Source: a virus
Length of the DNA: 40,945 nt
Virus record (IMG/VR): IMGVR_UViG_3300049856_000170
Coordinates: 1-40,945 of that record
Reading direction: 5' to 3' (one strand)
In this document: in pieces, positions 969 through 37,806 of the stretch
Position numbering within the stretch: the stretch's first letter is position 1
How the letters are laid out: every line of letters begins with the position of its first letter
Translations under genes and position numbers: made by a program
The notes under the pieces: generated by a model
What the model was told of the DNA's origin: nothing
The model's input: only the letters and a program-made list of their open reading frames with translations
Database searches by the model: none

Positions 969-1505
969 TTATATTGGTCTGTAGTGAACGATTATTCCGC
1001 AGTTCTCGCCACCAGCCATTGAAGTAATCTTATCACAACGAATCGCATAACCAGCACTTACTGATAATGGACTGCCACCAGATGTAAGTACAGGAGCTAC
1101 GCATCCACCAACTGATCCACCAACCCCAATCCATGCAGCGGCCACAGCTGATGATGTAATCTTTGGAGTTGTTGCAAAGATCGAGTTAAACGCAGCCCCT
1201 GGAGAAGATGCAATCTTAATATCAAGCTCTGTCGTACCGCTACTACCTGGTACGATATTAAACATCCATACATTGAATATCTCAGCGTCGAACTCAAATA
1301 CAGCTAAACCATCAGCGTAGAACTGAGGATCTGCCCCTCTAGCGTAAGGACCATTCAAAAAGAATTGCTTCTCTGAATGCTCTTTAGTCGCAAGGAAATT
1401 CATGAACTGCCCCATGCGTTGCATCGTAAATTCTGATACAGCCGCTTTAAAGAAAGTTTCTTCAATCTGAATTAATCCCGGAAATACACCTGGCAGGTCA
1501 GACAT
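969..1505 (-). CDS. Putative structural protein of the tail module
   Basis: A 178-residue protein whose first 60 residues look helical (TFFKAAVSEFTMQRMGQFMN) and whose remainder is Gly/Ser/Ala-rich and probably beta-structured. That layout suits a small virion protein, but no family was recognised. The start is an ATG preceded by AGGAAGAGGG. Its first eight bases overlap the end of the HNH nuclease gene upstream, so the nuclease has inserted directly in front of it and its ribosome site now lies inside the nuclease reading frame. Confidence 0.5.
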   Translation of the reverse strand: MSDLPGVFPGLIQIEETFFKAAVSEFTMQRMGQFMNFLATKEHSEKQFFLNGPYARGADPQFYADGLAVFEFDAEIFNVWMFNIVPGSSGTTELDIKIASSPGAAFNSIFATTPKITSSAVAAAWIGVGGSVGGCVAPVLTSGGSPLSVSAGYAIRCDKITSMAGGENCGIIVHYRPI

Positions 1506-1968
1506 TTTTCACCCTCTTCCTAATACCATTAATCTGCTTTCTTCCAATATCGTGTTTTTTTCCTGCTAATCTTTGGCACAGCCGGCATCTCTTAACAAGA
1601 CCATCCTTTGATATTACTAGATTCTCAGGAGATAATATATGACCACGCTGACATTCTTTTCTATCGTGAAAATGATGCCTTCTTTTTCTAATCATATCCA
1701 TATTGTTGTCTAGATTTGTTCCTAAAAATAAATGATCTGGATTAACACAAAGAGGGGTATCGCACTTATGACAAACCAAAAGACCATCTGGTATTTTTGA
1801 TTTAAATACCTCGAAAGAAACCCTATGAGATTTCTTGAGTCTCTTATTTATTCTCATTACTCCATATTCATGATTACGAACCCTTATTGAAGTTCCAAAC
1901 CACAACCAGCACCCTGTATTTGGCTCTGGTACAGACTTTTTCATTATCTTTTCCATTAAAGATTCCAC
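1498..1968 (-). CDS. HNH homing endonuclease (HNH_3 type)
   Basis: A 156-residue protein with the HNH homing-nuclease core: HRVSFEVFKSKIPDG, then VCHKCDTPLCVNPDHLFLGT and NLDNNMDM (roughly residues 52-100). The histidines, the Asn-Pro-Asp-His segment and the two Cys pairs match this His-Cys/HNH family. A second CxxC-like zinc motif (CQRGH...CRLC) follows. Such enzymes cut phage alleles lacking the insertion and spread by repair. The GTG start has GAGAGG upstream. The gene fills the gap between the tail hub gene and the 178-residue gene, overlapping the latter by eight bases, as a free-standing homing gene would. Confidence 0.88.
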   Translation of the reverse strand: MESLMEKIMKKSVPEPNTGCWLWFGTSIRVRNHEYGVMRINKRLKKSHRVSFEVFKSKIPDGLLVCHKCDTPLCVNPDHLFLGTNLDNNMDMIRKRRHHFHDRKECQRGHILSPENLVISKDGLVKRCRLCQRLAGKKHDIGRKQINGIRKRVKNV

Positions 1969-17123: not shown

Positions 17124-17141
17124 TCATCACTCCATCAAACA

Positions 17142-17171
17142 ATGGAGCCCAGGCTTAAACCTAAGCTCCAT
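17142..17171 (-). terminator. Hairpin after the major capsid gene
   Basis: On the minus strand ATGGAGCTTAGG pairs with CCTGGGCTCCAT across a 6-base loop, giving 12 bp with two G-U pairs. On the plus strand these two positions are mismatched (A-C), which supports function in the minus-strand RNA. A short TGTTTGA follows, so termination would be partial. Such attenuating hairpins after capsid genes help set the high capsid-to-connector expression ratio. Confidence 0.6.
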
Positions 17172-17179
17172 CGGAATCT

Positions 17180-18358
17180 TTATGTAGATTGGAATCCAGG
17201 GTTCAAGTTGATGATGAACTTAGGATCGATAAAATCTGATTCCCATCGTGAACGAGTTTTGTATCGGAAAACCTCTTGGCTGAACGCTGGTCCAGACTGT
17301 GGGTTCTCTTGAACAACCTCTTGTGGATCGCGACGTTGGAATGCAAATCCCTTAGGATCAATCAACAATGCGCCGTAATCACGGATGAATCGTGAAGACA
17401 CGATACCAACTAGATTCTGGATTGGATTGATTCCCATGATGCCGCCAACTTTGCCGATATCAGCAGAAGCTGTTGAACTCATGCTAGGAGACTGAGCAGA
17501 CTGCAACAAGATACTTGCGTAGAAGATATCCTGAGGACTAACTGCCAAGATCTTAGGAGTAACAACAATTGGACGTCCTGATTGATCTAACATCTTTTTA
17601 GACAAGATCCAACCAGCTTGAATTTGAGTTTGGCTCAATCGACCATCTGCCAATGCGTTCTTACCCAATCCAGCACCATGGATACCAGATGTAGAATAAG
17701 GAGTTGCATAAGTAACAGATACCGGAAGAGCTTCGCCATCTAAAGTAGCTGTAGTGTCGTTGCACATACGTGCCCAAACATAAGCTTCTTCATAGATACG
17801 AGCGTTCTCACCAAGTTGACTTGCGCGAGCAACAATCTGTCCAGTCATGTCGTCATCCATAAGCTCACGCTCAAAAGACAACATCATGCCGTACTTATGA
17901 TTGATCATCTCGATATCCAAACCTTTGAAGTTTGTCTCAGGAAATGAATCACCATTCATAGTACGTTTTGGAAATCCTACGCGCTCCAAAGGAGAGTAGA
18001 ACTCTTGACGCTTGTTAGAAGCAACTTCTCTAACCGCTGCAGTGTAAGTAACCTCAACTGCTTGGTAGATATCGTTGAAGGTGTTCTGAACACCAGCACG
18101 AAGAAGCTGACCGAAAGCAAGCTCAGATTGAGCCTCTGACAGCTTACGAGAAACACCATAAGCACCTTCACGGAACTTCTTGATTGAGAAGTCATGTCTC
18201 TTCATATCGAGAATGTTCTTCCAATCTTTGATTCCATAATGCTCAACTGTGTTCTTGATAGCTTTCTCGGTCTCTGCAACCTGGAAAGACTTCATGACCT
18301 TTTCATTTTGCTCCATTAAAGGAGTTTTTGCTGTGCCTGATTCATCAATAAATTTCAT
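17180..18358 (-). CDS. Major capsid protein (HK97 fold, inferred)
   Basis: A 392-residue protein. The N-terminal ~90 residues are charged and helical, suggesting a cleavable or scaffold-like arm. The core contains typical capsid phrases: EMINHKYGMMLSFERELMDDD, VARASQLGENARIYEE (the long spine helix), and WILSKKMLDQSGRPI with VTPKILAVSP. A C-terminal segment follows (ALLIDPKGFAFQRRDP). The ribosome site AAAGGAGGATAAT is the strongest nearby, as expected for the most abundant protein. It follows the decoration protein and is followed by a hairpin. It builds the icosahedral shell. Confidence 0.87.
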   Translation of the reverse strand: MKFIDESGTAKTPLMEQNEKVMKSFQVAETEKAIKNTVEHYGIKDWKNILDMKRHDFSIKKFREGAYGVSRKLSEAQSELAFGQLLRAGVQNTFNDIYQAVEVTYTAAVREVASNKRQEFYSPLERVGFPKRTMNGDSFPETNFKGLDIEMINHKYGMMLSFERELMDDDMTGQIVARASQLGENARIYEEAYVWARMCNDTTATLDGEALPVSVTYATPYSTSGIHGAGLGKNALADGRLSQTQIQAGWILSKKMLDQSGRPIVVTPKILAVSPQDIFYASILLQSAQSPSMSSTASADIGKVGGIMGINPIQNLVGIVSSRFIRDYGALLIDPKGFAFQRRDPQEVVQENPQSGPAFSQEVFRYKTRSRWESDFIDPKFIINLNPGFQST

Positions 18359-30767: not shown

Positions 30768-31267
30768 TGCTTGTCTAGGATATCGACGCTTTGAATCATT
30801 CTCAAGTCCTGAAAGATACGATTCACGTTAATTATGCGGTTATCGCCTATTAGTATTCCGTCTGTTGGCTTAAGCCCTGAACGCTTTGTAAGTGATCCGA
30901 TCATTGATCCTGAGAAGAACGCGGTGAGGTTAAGCTCAGAGAAGTTGATGATGTAACCGGCTTTGAATCCTTCCATTTCGATCTTCACGAGAATGTTTAT
31001 TTGATGAGGGGTTAGTGCGGAAAATGAATAGGTGTTTGCTTTAGTTGTTTTTGCATCAACGAATAGTGCCTTTCTGTCTTTAAGAAAGAAGAAGTCAAAT
31101 GGTGACTTCACACGGATTAGTTTTGTAGCAGATAGTTGTTTACAGCCATCAGGGATTGGGACTACGAGCCAGCCATGCCTTTGAGTTTCGCCGTGGAGGC
31201 TGTTTTCAAAGTTAGAGCCTCTATTTTTTGCTATTCTTCCTCGCTGAACATTCCTAATGTCTTTCAT
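30764..31267 (-). CDS. RecU-like Holliday junction resolvase
   Basis: A 167-residue protein with the RecU nuclease pattern: Glu21 in NFENSL, then KSPFDFFFL (Asp58) and ALFVDAKTT (Asp71, Lys73), which supply a PD-(D/E)xK-type active site, then LTPHQINILVK and GYIINF as in RecU. RecU cuts four-way junctions in recombining DNA. It is the first gene of the late operon, four bases ahead of the small terminase, so it may trim branched phage DNA before packaging, as phage resolvases such as T4 gp49 do. It is transcribed divergently from the ParB-like gene. Confidence 0.8.
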   Translation of the reverse strand: MKDIRNVQRGRIAKNRGSNFENSLHGETQRHGWLVVPIPDGCKQLSATKLIRVKSPFDFFFLKDRKALFVDAKTTKANTYSFSALTPHQINILVKIEMEGFKAGYIINFSELNLTAFFSGSMIGSLTKRSGLKPTDGILIGDNRIINVNRIFQDLRMIQSVDILDKQ

Positions 31268-31297: not shown

Positions 31298-31855
31298 ATG
31301 CAAACACAATCTGTGAATCGAAGTATAATGATTAAGTGCAAAGGTGCGGCCGAGATATCAATTGATAATCTTCGTGAGTTTCAAGGAGATTTGAAAGAAC
31401 TTACGAAAGAGAATTTTGATAAGCTTAAGCATACAATATTGACTGAAGGGTATTGTGATCCAGGTTCAGTATGGGAAGATGGCGGTATTTATTGGGTAAT
31501 AGATATGCATCAACGGTTATTTGTTTTGAAAGCTTTGAGATCTGAAGGTTACTATGTCCCACCAATTCCTGTTAATTTTGTGTATCCTAAAGATAAAGAA
31601 GAAGCGAAGAAGCTAGTTCTTACGTTCTCATCTAATTACGGGAAACTTACTGAAGACTCGGTTTCTAATTACTGTATTGATTCAAGTATTGAGCTTTCGT
31701 TCTTGGAGACTTCGGTTGTGTTTCCAGAGGTCGATCTTAATTACTTCACAGAAGGTAATGAACCATTAGAGGAAGCAGAGTCATTATCTCAAGATGATTC
31801 AGATTTAAGCCTTAAATGTGAGTCCTGCGGCGCTAAGATCAAGTCTAAGGCATAA
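31298..31855 (+). CDS. ParB-like (ParB/Srx superfamily) protein
   Basis: A 185-residue protein. A ParB-type N-terminal domain is seen in SIDNLREFQGDLKELTKENF, EGYCDPGSVWE, and WVIDMHQRLFVLKAL, where DMHQR replaces the usual GHRR box. The last residues form a CESCGAKI zinc knuckle. Phage proteins with this domain are DNA-binding or nucleotide-using (CTPase-like or nuclease-like) proteins, often next to methyltransferases or replication genes; none is nearby. The ATG follows AAAGGAGA. It faces away from the resolvase with only 30 bases between starts. Confidence 0.75.
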   Translation: MQTQSVNRSIMIKCKGAAEISIDNLREFQGDLKELTKENFDKLKHTILTEGYCDPGSVWEDGGIYWVIDMHQRLFVLKALRSEGYYVPPIPVNFVYPKDKEEAKKLVLTFSSNYGKLTEDSVSNYCIDSSIELSFLETSVVFPEVDLNYFTEGNEPLEEAESLSQDDSDLSLKCESCGAKIKSKA

Positions 31856-31880
31856 TCTGTATTATCTTGATACACTTCAT

Positions 31881-31892
31881 ACATATATATGT
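31881..31892. promoter_or_regulatory. Palindrome in a short intergenic gap
   Basis: ACATATATATGT is a perfect 12-base palindrome in the 82-base gap between the ParB-like gene and the next gene. A TTGATA lies just upstream (31867-31872). It could be an operator or part of a promoter, but AT-rich palindromes also arise by chance. Confidence 0.25.
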
Positions 31893-31937
31893 CACCCAAA
31901 GGGTTTCCTTGCTACTATGTATATATGGAGGACCTGT

Positions 31938-32138
31938 ATGAACGAAAAAGTAAATAGCAAGATGATCGAGGTTTCAGCGGTACTGATCGAGATGGAGAAG
32001 ATCATTAAGTCGCAAGTAGTGACTAGTGTAAATATTGACCCCAACGATCCAGTGTTGCAGATGACTGCGGTTGAGTTAGTTGATCTCGGTATAGAGGTCT
32101 ACAAGAACCTGCAAATGTCTACATGGAGTAAGAAATGA
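31938..32138 (+). CDS. Small protein of unknown function, early region
   Basis: A 66-residue protein starting MNEKVNSKMIEVSAVL, mostly helical with acidic residues. The ATG at 31938 is preceded by GGAGG (spacer 6). Longer in-frame upstream codons overlap the ParB-like gene and have no ribosome site, so they were not used. It overlaps the next gene by four bases. No family recognised. Confidence 0.6.
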   Translation: MNEKVNSKMIEVSAVLIEMEKIIKSQVVTSVNIDPNDPVLQMTAVELVDLGIEVYKNLQMSTWSKK

Positions 32139-32305
32139 AAAAGGTAAAGAGACCTAATAGGTCTTTCAGAGTTAGAGCGGACCTTATGGCTGAGGCGGAG
32201 AAGCAGGGGATCATATTCTCTCAGTTCGCTGAAAAAGCTTTAGAAGATTATTTAAATGGCAAGACTACATGTCCGACTTGCGGACAGAAAGTGAGTACCA
32301 AATGA
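32135..32305 (+). CDS. Small ribbon-helix-helix-like protein with zinc knuckle
   Basis: A 56-residue protein, MKKVKRPNRSFRVRADLMAEAEKQG..., that fits a ribbon-helix-helix fold: a basic strand SFRVRADL and helices MAEAEKQG and SQFAEKALEDYL. It ends with CPTCGQK, a half zinc ribbon. Such proteins often are phage repressors of neighbouring promoters. It overlaps both neighbours by four bases (ATGA). It is short but strongly coupled, so it is probably real. Confidence 0.65.
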   Translation: MKKVKRPNRSFRVRADLMAEAEKQGIIFSQFAEKALEDYLNGKTTCPTCGQKVSTK

Positions 32306-32430
32306 TTTCCAAAGAGATGATGAAACATATGCTTAAACAAAGACTCCTTGAACCAGATGTTCTATCTATCGCAATCTTTGCAATTGTCTTCGTATTCATC
32401 CAACTCTATTTTTCCTGGACGAGCTTGTAA
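32302..32430 (+). CDS. Small single-span membrane peptide
   Basis: A 42-residue peptide with a basic, amphipathic N-terminal 20 residues and a hydrophobic stretch DVLSIAIFAIVFVFIQLYF (residues 19-37). Start overlaps the previous stop by four bases. The layout suggests a membrane protein, possibly affecting host envelope or superinfection. No family recognised. Confidence 0.5.
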   Translation: MISKEMMKHMLKQRLLEPDVLSIAIFAIVFVFIQLYFSWTSL

Positions 32431-32516
32431 CAATGAAATCAAGTGATTTCTGTAAAACTAGACTTGCGCTATGCGGCTAAAGTAAATTACTATCGGTTAA
32501 ATCAAGGAGGTATGAA

Positions 32517-32711
32517 ATGGACGCTATTGCCCTTTTAAAGACCCTTTGTGATCAGGTTACAATAACGGCTCAGCTAAACGAAACAAATGCAACCATGACC
32601 GGATATGGCGATTTTAAGCGTGCTTCTGGTCAGGTTGTCGTCGAGGTTGAAGGCTGCCAGCGTGTTTTTTTGGTAGAAATAAAAGAAACTCATCCAGCTA
32701 TCGATTCTTAA
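32517..32711 (+). CDS. Small acidic protein
   Basis: A 64-residue protein starting MDAIALLKTLCDQV. The ATG at 32517 is chosen over the one at 32512 because the latter opens a nine-codon frame ending in a stop. AAGGAGGT lies five bases upstream, so initiation is efficient. The protein has beta-like strands (GQVVVEVEGCQRVFLVEIK). It ends 19 bases before the end of the opposite-strand operon. Function unknown. Confidence 0.6.
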   Translation: MDAIALLKTLCDQVTITAQLNETNATMTGYGDFKRASGQVVVEVEGCQRVFLVEIKETHPAIDS

Positions 32712-32729: not shown

Positions 32730-32891
32730 CTACATAAACATCTGGTGGTACGCGTCATCATCGCCATCGAGTGTTTTGATCGCCCAACGGATCATGTTCA
32801 TGGTTCCTGCGATTGCAAGAAAAGGAATTAGGACCAAAATCAATAAAGCGGTAAATGGTGCGAGGATCATGTGAGCGGCTATTCGTTTCAT
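32730..32891 (-). CDS. Small membrane protein, last gene of the embedded minus operon
   Basis: A 53-residue protein: a basic start (MKRIAAHM), a hydrophobic segment of about 20 residues (LAPFTALLILVLIPFLAIAG) and an acidic tail (DGDDD). It overlaps the previous gene's stop by four bases, the strongest sign that it is real. No family recognised. The charged tail would lie in the cytoplasm or periplasm depending on topology, probably periplasm given the basic N-terminus. Confidence 0.55.
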   Translation of the reverse strand: MKRIAAHMILAPFTALLILVLIPFLAIAGTMNMIRWAIKTLDGDDDAYHQMFM

Positions 32892-33115: not shown

Positions 33116-33309
33116 TTTCTAGAGCTCTCTACCAACAATCGAACTTCAATCTCTAAAGCATTAATCCGAGATAGTGCTACGTCCAAACTATGCTTAACTT
33201 CATGAGCGTAGCCAACTGATCGTTGATGTTCCTCTAGCAGCATCGCGCACTCTTGCTCAGTGATGCTTAGTAAATCTTTGATGATTCGAAATCTGTCTGC
33301 AACACTCAT
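33112..33309 (-). CDS. Small helical coiled-coil protein
   Basis: A 65-residue protein, helical throughout, with heptad-like leucines (IKDLLSITEQECAMLLEEHQ..., LDVALSRINALEIEV). It overlaps both neighbours by four bases. No signal or membrane segment. It may pair with the 125-residue coiled-coil membrane protein upstream. Function unknown. Confidence 0.5.
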   Translation of the reverse strand: MSVADRFRIIKDLLSITEQECAMLLEEHQRSVGYAHEVKHSLDVALSRINALEIEVRLLVESSRK

Positions 33310-33683
33310 TGGCTTAACCCATCCATTTGCTTATTGATCTTCTTAGCTAAGGTTGTAAATCCTACAGGTAGTGTTACCTCTAACCGCTTCACCATGTTCT
33401 CTCTCAGAATCCTATTTTGCTTTAAGATAATTCTCTGCGTATCTCGCATCTTCGCCATATGTTCTTGATAAGCGTCAACATCAGCGGAAAGCTTCTTGTT
33501 AGACTCCAAGCTTGCCTGATGAGAGATTTCAAGTAGGCGCTGCTTCTTCATCACTTCCAGGTAATCGACTTTCAACTTGTTGATGCCAGCCATGAAGGTT
33601 CTGTGATTCGTTGAGTCTTTCTGGATGTAGTAAATAAATGTGATGAGTAGCGATAGAAGTAAAACTGCTTGAACGTATTCCAT
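33306..33683 (-). CDS. Membrane-anchored coiled-coil protein, first gene of the embedded operon
   Basis: A 125-residue protein. Residues 3-20 form one membrane segment (YVQAVLLLSLLITFIYYI), then a charged coiled coil from 23 to about 105 and a short tail. The layout resembles inner-membrane spanins, but it lies far from the lysis cassette in the opposite-strand operon. The ATG is preceded by an unusual GGGGGG and an upstream 8-bp hairpin. A different envelope role, such as blocking superinfection, is possible. Confidence 0.5.
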   Translation of the reverse strand: MEYVQAVLLLSLLITFIYYIQKDSTNHRTFMAGINKLKVDYLEVMKKQRLLEISHQASLESNKKLSADVDAYQEHMAKMRDTQRIILKQNRILRENMVKRLEVTLPVGFTTLAKKINKQMDGLSQ

Positions 33684-33714: not shown

Positions 33715-33805
33715 TCTGCTTGTTAAGTCTACATTGATGGAATGATTATGCCACGAGGCGGCATCAGTTGAATTATTAGGGCTAATGATTGATCTTGGGG
33801 ATAAG

Positions 33806-33835
33806 AAAAAAAAAGGCCAGTGTTAGTTGCTGGCC
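33806..33835 (-). terminator. Intrinsic terminator, minus strand
   Basis: On the minus strand GGCCAG, a 9-base loop and CTGGCC are followed by nine Ts, a textbook rho-independent terminator. Nothing recognised as a gene is transcribed into it from the right on this strand, except the proposed non-coding RNA. On the plus strand the tract is weak (CTCTTT). Confidence 0.85.
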
Positions 33836-33854
33836 CTCTTTAAGATATGACAGT

Positions 33855-34315
33855 CCTAAAGATGCCCGAAAATCAACAAAGCGGCAAGTTTTTTCTTCAA
33901 GAAGTGTAGATGCTGCAAAACTTGTAAAATCAGCAGGTAACGGACGCTGTAATGGCCGGTCCGGTTAAGGCGACATTGACTAGGGGCAAACCTATTCCTG
34001 GATAGGATCCTAGGCCGCTGATGGAAAAACTTAGTTGAAGAACACAACTGCCCACCATCAGGTTTAGTCAATTAGTCTTACCCCGGATGAGAGACAGAAG
34101 GTATTGAGGAAGATGGTCTAGAACAAGCACGAGCCCGAACAGAAAGATAGGGACGCTCTTTGTTTCTAAGTTTTATTTGAGCAAAAGCTCTTTAAATGGC
34201 TGCAAGAGTTACGCAGCAAGCAGACGCTAGACCAGACAGAAACAATCCCTTAGGGAAAGCTGGAGCTCCAGAATAGGATGAGCGGCCAGTAATGGGCATC
34301 CTATTGTCTTTTAGG
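33855..34315 (-). ncRNA. Large structured non-coding RNA candidate
   Basis: About 460 bases with no credible gene but dense base pairing. Ends pair: 33861-33867 with 34294-34300 (GATGCCC/GGGCATC) and 33855-33860 with 34310-34315 (CCTAAA/TTTAGG). Internal helices: 33885-33892/33917-33924; a branched domain closed by 33975-33982/34065-34072 with arms 33991-33995/34002-34006 and 34018-34024/34055-34061 (plus 34033-34037/34045-34049); a second domain closed by 34114-34121/34227-34234 with 34199-34203/34213-34217; 34179-34182/34187-34190; and 34272-34280/34297-34305 as an alternative to the closing helix. The minus strand is preferred because a strong terminator follows the closing helix. A-rich loops on the plus strand argue the other way. 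No sequence match to tmRNA, RNase P or group I intron cores was noticed. Confidence 0.6.
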
Positions 34316-34358
34316 TATTTAGTTAAATCATGAATAAGTTTCATAGCTGCAGGTTAGT

Positions 34359-34374
34359 ATTTGAACTATCAAAT
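34359..34374. promoter_or_regulatory. Inverted repeat upstream of a 92-residue gene
   Basis: ATTTGA and TCAAAT are separated by four bases, 24 bases before the next start codon. The size and symmetry suit a dimeric regulator's operator. No good promoter elements were identified around it. Confidence 0.3.
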
Positions 34375-34397
34375 CAAACTGATTACTAGAGATAAAT

Positions 34398-34676
34398 ATG
34401 AAGTCCATTGCGAATGAAGAAGTTAAAGATATACTAGAACACTTAAACTCTCTAGGTATTGATGTTAATTCAATAGACGATGTAGCCAATGGTATAGTTA
34501 TGTCCTATTCAAGCTATGATTCATTTTACGAGTGGTTTAACAGGTTCCTTGGTCAACCTAGGTCTAAGAAGATTATTGAGGATAAAGACACCGAAGCCTT
34601 TACTAGATACCTTGCTGGGGCATTAAGAAAACGTATCTCATCAGCTCAGTTAATTAACGATCAGATCTTTCGATAG
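34398..34676 (+). CDS. Small protein of unknown function
   Basis: A 92-residue mixed helical protein starting MKSIANEEVKDILEHLNSLG. It has acidic helices first and a basic end. AGAGATAA before the ATG is a weak ribosome site. It stands alone between the structured-RNA region and a 316-base gap. No family recognised. Confidence 0.55.
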   Translation: MKSIANEEVKDILEHLNSLGIDVNSIDDVANGIVMSYSSYDSFYEWFNRFLGQPRSKKIIEDKDTEAFTRYLAGALRKRISSAQLINDQIFR

Positions 34677-34992
34677 TTTTGCTCATTTTTTGATTCATTT
34701 TTGCATCACTAGGATCAAGTGATTACAAATAGTTACGCAAAATAAATGCAGTACTTCTCGTCAACTTCGCATCTACATCTTATAGGAAGCTGATTGAGGC
34801 GAAAACTAGGGAATTGTAACTTTCTGCTTGCAAGCTTACCAAACATCATCTACATGTTCATCGAAACAAGGGCCGCTCACACCCCTAATTTATAATTTAA
34901 TCCCGGAATCCCCGGTCTATTTTTTGCGAATCCTTGAGCGGCTGCGCAAGATGGCCGGGGGATCCCCCTTACTAGAGGTTACTAGAGGAACT
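34677..34992 (+). promoter_or_regulatory. Intergenic region with operator-like and palindromic elements
   Basis: This 316-base stretch has no convincing gene; longer in-frame codons run on upstream of the 34993 ATG but lack a ribosome site. It holds ATCACT/AGTGAT with a 7-base gap (34705-34723); an 8-bp inverted pair GCCGCTCA (34872-34879) and TGAGCGGC (34935-34942); a perfect GGGGGATCCCCC palindrome (34957-34968); and a tandem 10-base direct repeat TTACTAGAGG (34969-34988) just before the start of the next gene. Candidate roles are operator, leader RNA or replication control. No AT-rich iteron array is seen. Confidence 0.5.
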
Positions 34993-35250
34993 ATGTCTGA
35001 CCCACTAGATACGCCAAATTATATAGAAGAATCACAGATAGATACAGCCACTCGTAAATCACATGAAGAGATGGATTCTAAATCAGTCCAAGCTCATGCG
35101 GCAGATGCCTTCAGAGACGTTGTAATGCCGTCGAAAGAGCAGTGGGCGACTATGACTAAAGATGAGAAGTACGCGTTCAATAGAGAGTATTACAGGGCAT
35201 TAAGCCTAATATATACCAACCCCTGGCATAGAATGAAAGATGGTGAGTGA
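34993..35250 (+). CDS. Small protein upstream of the annealing protein
   Basis: An 85-residue acidic, helical protein starting MSDPLDTPNYIEES. The start at 34993 follows AGAGGAAC; both units of a tandem repeat upstream contain AGAGG. It overlaps the Rad52-like gene by four bases, so the two are probably co-translated. A recombination-accessory role is inferred only from position. Confidence 0.6.
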   Translation: MSDPLDTPNYIEESQIDTATRKSHEEMDSKSVQAHAADAFRDVVMPSKEQWATMTKDEKYAFNREYYRALSLIYTNPWHRMKDGE

Positions 35251-36761: not shown

Positions 36762-37328
36762 ATGACAAGTGCTCCTAGAAACAACAAACATAATCACATG
36801 ACTAGAGATATAAAGCCACTAGGGAAATGCCCATTGTGCGATGAATATCATGACAAGCATATTCCGAAGAAGAACATACCGAGGGAATGGTGGTTAGAGA
36901 AATTCAATTATTACTCACATGCTATTTTTACTACTCTGACAGCCTATACAAGAGAAGAGAAGGATAGATTTAAAATACTCGACGATGGTGACACTATTCA
37001 TGTCGTGGAACACTCGGCCCTTGTAGCAGCACAAGAGGAGATCGAGAGATTGCGAAAAGAACATGAAAATTTTTGCGAACAAGCGCAAGAAAAAACCGAT
37101 GATGATTTCGCTGTAGTTCGTGACTATATAGAAAAGACCAAAGATGAACTCACCTCCCTGAGAGCCAGACATGAAGGTTTGCGGTTGGCATTACAGCAAA
37201 TATCGAAGACCAAATACGGGTTAGAGCTTACTGACACCGACGAATATCTTTTGGAGCACTGGTCAAAGCAAGCACTTAGTTACGAACAAATTGCCCGCGA
37301 TGCTTTAGCGAAGTATGGGAGTTCGTGA
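36762..37328 (+). CDS. Coiled-coil protein with a CPLC zinc-like motif
   Basis: A 188-residue protein. The N-terminus has GKCPLCDEYHDKH, a plausible zinc-binding CxxC...H...H. From about 85 to 165 it is strongly helical and charged (ALVAAQEEIERLRKEHENF). AAGGTGATGA precedes the ATG. It is followed directly by the homing nuclease, whose start region it overlaps. Function unknown. Confidence 0.55.
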   Translation: MTSAPRNNKHNHMTRDIKPLGKCPLCDEYHDKHIPKKNIPREWWLEKFNYYSHAIFTTLTAYTREEKDRFKILDDGDTIHVVEHSALVAAQEEIERLRKEHENFCEQAQEKTDDDFAVVRDYIEKTKDELTSLRARHEGLRLALQQISKTKYGLELTDTDEYLLEHWSKQALSYEQIARDALAKYGSS

Positions 37329-37329
37329 G

Positions 37330-37806
37330 ATGACCGATAGGAAAGAAATAGAACTATCACAAAATAAGGTTGCAGTAGTGGACGCCGACATGTTCGATGA
37401 ATTATCTAAATATAAATGGTGTTACTACAGGGGTTATGCTGTTCGACTGGCTATAGATAAAATCACTAAGAAGTACTCAATGATCCACATGCATCGAGTG
37501 GTGAATACCACTCCCGATGCATTAGATACTGACCACATAAATGGGAACAAGCTAGATAATAGGAAATCAAATCTACGTTCCGCCACCAAATCAGAAAATA
37601 TGTGCAATCGTGGTAAGCCTAAGAATAACACATCTGGATTTAAAGGCGTTTATTGGCACAATCAAAATAAGAAATGGTACGCACGAATTGAGCTGCACAG
37701 TAAGGGCCAGCATCTAGGATACTTCAGTACTCCAGAGCTAGCTGCCGAAGCGTATAACGCCGCCGCCGTTTCGTTACATGGAGAGTTTGCTAATTTAAAT
37801 AAATAA
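37330..37806 (+). CDS. HNH homing endonuclease with AP2 domain
   Basis: A 158-residue protein. The HNH part has MHRVV, ALDTDHINGNKLDNRKSNLR and ATKSENMCNRG (about 55-95), and an AP2-type DNA-binding domain follows (SGFKGVYWHNQNKKWYARIE, LGYFSTPELAAEAYNAAA). I chose ATG 37330, which follows GGGAG, rather than the in-frame ATG at 37315. This is the third HNH nuclease in the genome and of a different subclass from the other two. It overlaps nothing downstream and is followed by 53 non-coding bases. Confidence 0.88.
   Translation: MTDRKEIELSQNKVAVVDADMFDELSKYKWCYYRGYAVRLAIDKITKKYSMIHMHRVVNTTPDALDTDHINGNKLDNRKSNLRSATKSENMCNRGKPKNNTSGFKGVYWHNQNKKWYARIELHSKGQHLGYFSTPELAAEAYNAAAVSLHGEFANLNK

Follow-up and report, generated by a model that had tools for sequence, protein, structure and literature searches.

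A plausible large structured RNA candidate between the divergent gene blocks of a phage genome

Large noncoding RNAs are carried by some phages, and one of them, GOLLD, rises in expression during lysis. GOLLD occurs in both phages and prophages, and many of its representatives exceed 800 nt (PMC12286853). ROOL is likewise a large noncoding RNA of phages and prophages, has complex helices and pseudoknots, and is often located near tRNA islands; the functions of GOLLD and ROOL are not known (PMC12286853). In the early control region of phage HK022, the put RNA is about 70 nt long and comprises two stem-loops (PMC9378689). Here, we describe a noncoding region with extensive long-range pairing in a virus record of 40,945 bases (IMGVR_UViG_3300049856_000170), the whole of which we refer to as the window. 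The region is a plausible RNA candidate from a single genome, not an established new RNA class.

An Rfam cmscan of the region returns nothing at gathering scores and chance-level matches alone at E ≤ 10. Neither GOLLD nor ROOL appears at this threshold, in keeping with the initial annotation, which had recognised neither. The HDV-like ribozyme, a nested double pseudoknot with P1, P2, P3, P1.1 and P4, matches weakly at 33912-33975 (RF02682), where a GCTG/CAGC stem is followed by GGTAAC. We rejected this candidate, as the match scores 16.6 bits (E 1.3-2), below the gathering cut-off of 44, and the full P2/P3 set could not be placed by eye. A group I intron was also rejected: it has no Rfam match at E ≤ 10, and no coding sequence lies upstream in the plus direction. 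GACTA/TAGTC and AGCGGC/GCCGCT recall group I P7 and P3, by eye only. Pfam or PHROGs scans of part of the ORFs in the window found no reverse transcriptase, as would accompany a retron or DGR RNA.

The structural and packaging genes of this phage form a leftward block, and the early genes, including a single-strand annealing protein (SSAP), form a rightward block. The leftward gene at 33306-33683 and the rightward gene at 34398-34676 are separated by 714 bases in which no gene is credible. The former encodes a 125-aa orphan protein on the minus strand and is the first leftward gene past a terminator discussed below. The latter encodes a 92-aa orphan protein on the plus strand and is the first rightward gene past the candidate region; its predicted fold is all-helical, at low-to-moderate confidence, and comparison with the PDB gave no significant match. 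An A+T-rich spacer (34325-34397; 27% GC) precedes this gene and is a possible promoter region, in which we found no good match to a sigma-70 promoter. Further along, the early region has another noncoding stretch (34677-34993; about 315 bases), which contains GGGGGATCCCCC. Its perfect 10-base tandem, two copies of TTACTAGAGG at 34969-34988, lies immediately 5' of a start codon. Elsewhere, HNH_3 endonuclease genes sit at opposite ends of the window (1498-1968 and 37315-37806, the latter also weakly matching AP2), and small rightward ORFs form an island within the otherwise leftward block (31298-32711), the first of them having a methyltransferase-like PHROG match.

We find the region at 33849-34324 to be noncoding: none of its frames has a score like that of this phage's genes, which bears out the earlier claim that some 460-500 bases here lack a credible gene. 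Its longest ORFs encode 71 aa (minus strand, TTG), 59 aa (plus strand, TTG) and 50 aa (minus strand), and none of its ORFs matches Pfam or PHROGs at E ≤ 1. Under a codon model trained on the larger genes of the phage itself, neighbouring genes are positive in their true frame and the candidate region is negative in nearly every frame. The exception is the 50-aa minus-strand ORF (34192-34344), which is slightly positive (up to 0.14 bits per codon). This ORF, together with a GC content and purine skew like those of the rightward genes, would fit the remnant of a decayed protein gene. Such an origin is very improbable, as all plus frames of the region contain many stops and score negatively, and its ORFs are without a family match.

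The pairings on which the initial annotation rested are present in the sequence. The candidate RNA body spans about 475 nt (33849-34324) and is purine-rich on the plus strand, the strand we infer for it. Its closing helix has a 5' strand, CCTAAA GATGCCC (33855-33867), and a 3' strand at 34294-34315. CCTAAA (33855-33860) pairs with TTTAGG (34310-34315) and GATGCCC (33861-33867) with GGGCATC (34294-34300), with predicted pair probabilities of 0.69 and 0.73 on the plus strand; the two parts of the 3' strand are separated by a 9-nt bulge of unpaired bases. Just inside, an H-type pseudoknot is possible at 33885-33935, combining 33885-33892/33917-33924 (8 bp) with 33911-33915/33931-33935 (5 bp); hairpins at 33881-33886/33911-33916 and 33920-33925/33933-33938 compete with it. 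A 19-base direct repeat (89%), AAAATCAAYAAAGCGGYAA, occurs at 32836-32854 and 33869-33887, one copy falling within the candidate RNA, and is compatible with chance.

The closing helix would enclose two larger domains. The long arm (33959-34088) is built on 33959-33964/34083-34088, 33966-33971/34075-34080 and 33975-33983/34064-34072, all three predicted at a pair probability above 0.9, with hairpins at 33991-34006 and 34018-34061 inside. The third of these helices contains the first of two 8-bp long-range pairs described earlier (33975-33982/34065-34072). The other, 34114-34121/34227-34234, closes the second domain (34098-34251), lies within 34098-34106/34243-34251, and is predicted at 0.96 on the plus strand and 0.39 on the minus strand; hairpins at 34179-34190 and 34199-34217 belong to the same domain. 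Two further helices cannot be nested with these and thus suggest pseudoknots. One (34160-34167/34238-34245, 8 bp) crosses 34114-34121/34227-34234, and the other, a possible 9-bp long-range contact (34026-34034/34166-34174), would join both domains.

These pairings are genuine and exceed chance. Between 33850 and 34320, we count eight perfect helices of at least 8 bp against a mean of 1.39 in dinucleotide shuffles, although several share the repeated words AAGTTTT/AAAACTT and so are not all independent, which makes the effective excess smaller. Eight helices are reached by 3 of 12,000 shuffles (p about 2.5e-4 for this segment, which was picked after the sequence had been read; such counts are blind to strand). 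Across the genome, only 2 of 810 segments reach eight, those at 33801 and 33851, which represents the genome maximum. Folding energy is weaker evidence than the helix excess. The plus-strand minimum free energy (MFE), a measure that takes no account of pseudoknots, is mildly low (z about -1.4 to -1.8) and ranks 29th of 542 genome segments, in about the lowest 5%; that of the minus strand is ordinary (z -0.3 to -1.2 relative to shuffles; rank 128 of 542). By a greedy score permitting any pseudoknot, the region is not separable from shuffles.

Energies this close to chance, and the several helices that a single repeated word (AAGTTTT/AAAACTT) yields, also fit an ordinary divergent control region, with promoters, operators, one terminator and possibly a replication origin, in which the RNA-like appearance comes from repeated words and chance pairing. 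The location between leftward and rightward blocks would suit such a region, and another noncoding gap lies nearby (34677-34993). However, a phage promoter region would not usually be as long (476 nt) or as rich in G+C (45%), and the helix excess holds against shuffles and is exceptional genome-wide. We regard this explanation as somewhat unlikely.

A strong intrinsic terminator of leftward transcripts lies at 33809-33841 on the minus strand (-15.3 kcal/mol, z -4.4, U9 tail). Its stable stem and U run confirm the earlier claim of such a terminator near the closing helix, beyond which it begins by about 14 bases on the minus strand. It is among the two best of the genome; one terminator scan, limited to loops of 3-8 nt, did not list it, as its loop is 9 nt. 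The window also holds a very strong minus-strand terminator (17124-17179; -21.3 kcal/mol) directly 3' of the capsid gene (17180-18358), a position that suggests separate control of capsid expression. Close to where the leftward RecU-like gene starts, the plus strand has a terminator-like hairpin (31190-31235); immediately upstream of this hairpin, there is no rightward gene.

The absence of coding signal, the significant excess of long perfect helices and the strong terminator nearby fit a large structured RNA, as had been proposed. Folding energy lends this proposal less, being near chance on the minus strand and mildly low on the plus strand. Taking both strands together, we consider a large structured RNA somewhat probable.

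The evidence on strand is divided, and we lean toward the plus strand. The initial annotation had set the terminator, favouring minus, against A-rich loops, favouring plus. The first of these arguments stands, and the second fails: shuffles of the same composition give an equal share of unpaired A. Other features speak for the plus strand. The named long-range helices have probabilities of 0.69-0.96 in the plus ensemble and 0.18-0.90 in the minus ensemble, where the outer closing helix falls to 0.18 and the second arm to 0.39. The purine share of the region on the plus strand (0.569) is close to the mean of the rightward genes (0.561) and exceeds that of every sampled leftward-block segment of equal length (maximum 0.550). 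Its GC content is 45%, whereas the spacer next to it has 27%.

Apart from a transcript of the region, no leftward RNA that the terminator might end is obvious, and the interval from it to the rightward early genes contains no leftward gene that it could serve. Furthermore, spacer, closing helix and terminator follow one another on the minus strand in a gene-like order. The product might be a minus-strand RNA of about 500 nt, with a promoter in the spacer (34325-34397) and its end at the terminator (33809-33841), acting either as a leader or on its own, as a noncoding or antisense RNA. In lambdoid phages, terminators ahead of genes hold expression back until antitermination, and a minus-strand leader could, by analogy, withhold the leftward genes in the same way. 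We consider a minus-strand RNA rather unlikely. It folds no better than shuffles do, its outer closing helix and second arm have low predicted probabilities, it would be rich in pyrimidines, and we found no good leftward promoter. Both strands may be transcribed.

Our preferred reading, held tentatively, is a structured noncoding RNA of about 475 nt from the plus strand that heads the rightward early genes. It would be a long 5' leader of the operon encoding the 92-aa protein and the annealing protein, or a product processed from that leader. The closing helix would join the ends of the RNA around two multi-helix domains, possibly linked by pseudoknots, and the leftward terminator would serve to insulate the leftward genes or to stop antisense transcription. 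Against this reading, no homologue was found, the MFE z-score is only -1.4 to -1.8, the pseudoknot score is at chance, no recognisable promoter lies immediately 5' on the plus strand, and the sole strong local terminator is on the other strand.

The ends of a plus-strand RNA could also switch. In place of the closing helix, its 3' strand can pair locally in a 9-bp hairpin (34272-34280/34297-34305), found in the sequence as claimed earlier, whose loop at 34281-34287 also matches 34013-34019 (7 bp). The closed and hairpin forms are nearly equal in predicted energy on the plus strand (-132.5 and -131.4 kcal/mol; forcing the hairpin costs 1.1), so the proposed switch is energetically possible, although otherwise unsupported.

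Searches for relatives of the region among 50,697 phage and 72,556 plasmid records found no similar DNA beyond chance. Four exact probes of IMG/VR gave no match that extends along the region; among the matches listed, none to TCAGCAGGTAACGGA, GGTTAAGGCGACATT or CCGGATGAGAGACAGA extends, and those to TCAGCAGG have unrelated, mostly coding-like flanks. We also rejected an exact 21-nt IMG/VR match, apparently inside a gene and without extension, and a phiEco32-like match (44 nt, 82%, E 0.04) that sits at an intergenic terminator and does not extend. A covariance model of the main arm (R1) had no match in 94 sources other than the window itself; in 50 whole virus records, it had none. This structure-model search covered about 1 Mb of loci plus the 50 records, and its negatives are weak because a single-sequence RNA model is insensitive and the record search had no positive control.

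As protein baits, the large terminase (TerL) and the 92-aa protein recovered no relatives, and INPHARED phages yielded no close relative of the terminase. In none of the loci found with the SSAP (80 viral, 17 genome) was the candidate RNA present; at most, they have scattered genes in common with this phage, HNH endonucleases for example. The portal protein identified two true relatives, L261 and L262, which are short IMG/VR contigs belonging with this phage to one uncharacterised group. Their portal (61-64% identity), terminase (61%) and capsid (69%) resemble those of this phage, and most genes are collinear (36-80% identity). Both contigs end before the candidate region: L262 stops inside the RecU-like gene, and L261 lies on the other side. 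Seven distant relatives (30%) recovered with the same bait are without the candidate RNA.

We consider it unlikely that the region, at the divergent early control region of an uncharacterised phage group, represents a large, pseudoknotted phage RNA of a new class, with switchable end helices and no relationship to GOLLD, ROOL or any other Rfam family. If it did, this would be an independent class found at an early control region and not at a tRNA island, and would offer a test system for RNA-based control of early phage transcription. At present, the candidate is a single sequence without relatives.

Among described systems, the put RNA is a structured RNA from a phage early control region near terminators (PMC9378689), as the candidate would be, although the candidate is far longer and the similarity was checked via Rfam only. 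GOLLD differs from it in that the candidate is about 475 nt, lacks an Rfam match and has no tRNA array; like GOLLD, the candidate would be a large noncoding RNA of a phage. Compared with ROOL, the candidate has no Rfam match at E ≤ 10 and no known relatives, and the window contains no tRNA, a location near tRNA islands being frequent for ROOL but not obligatory. Nevertheless, as modelled here, the candidate would share with ROOL the character of a large phage noncoding RNA with complex helices, possible pseudoknots and no assigned function.
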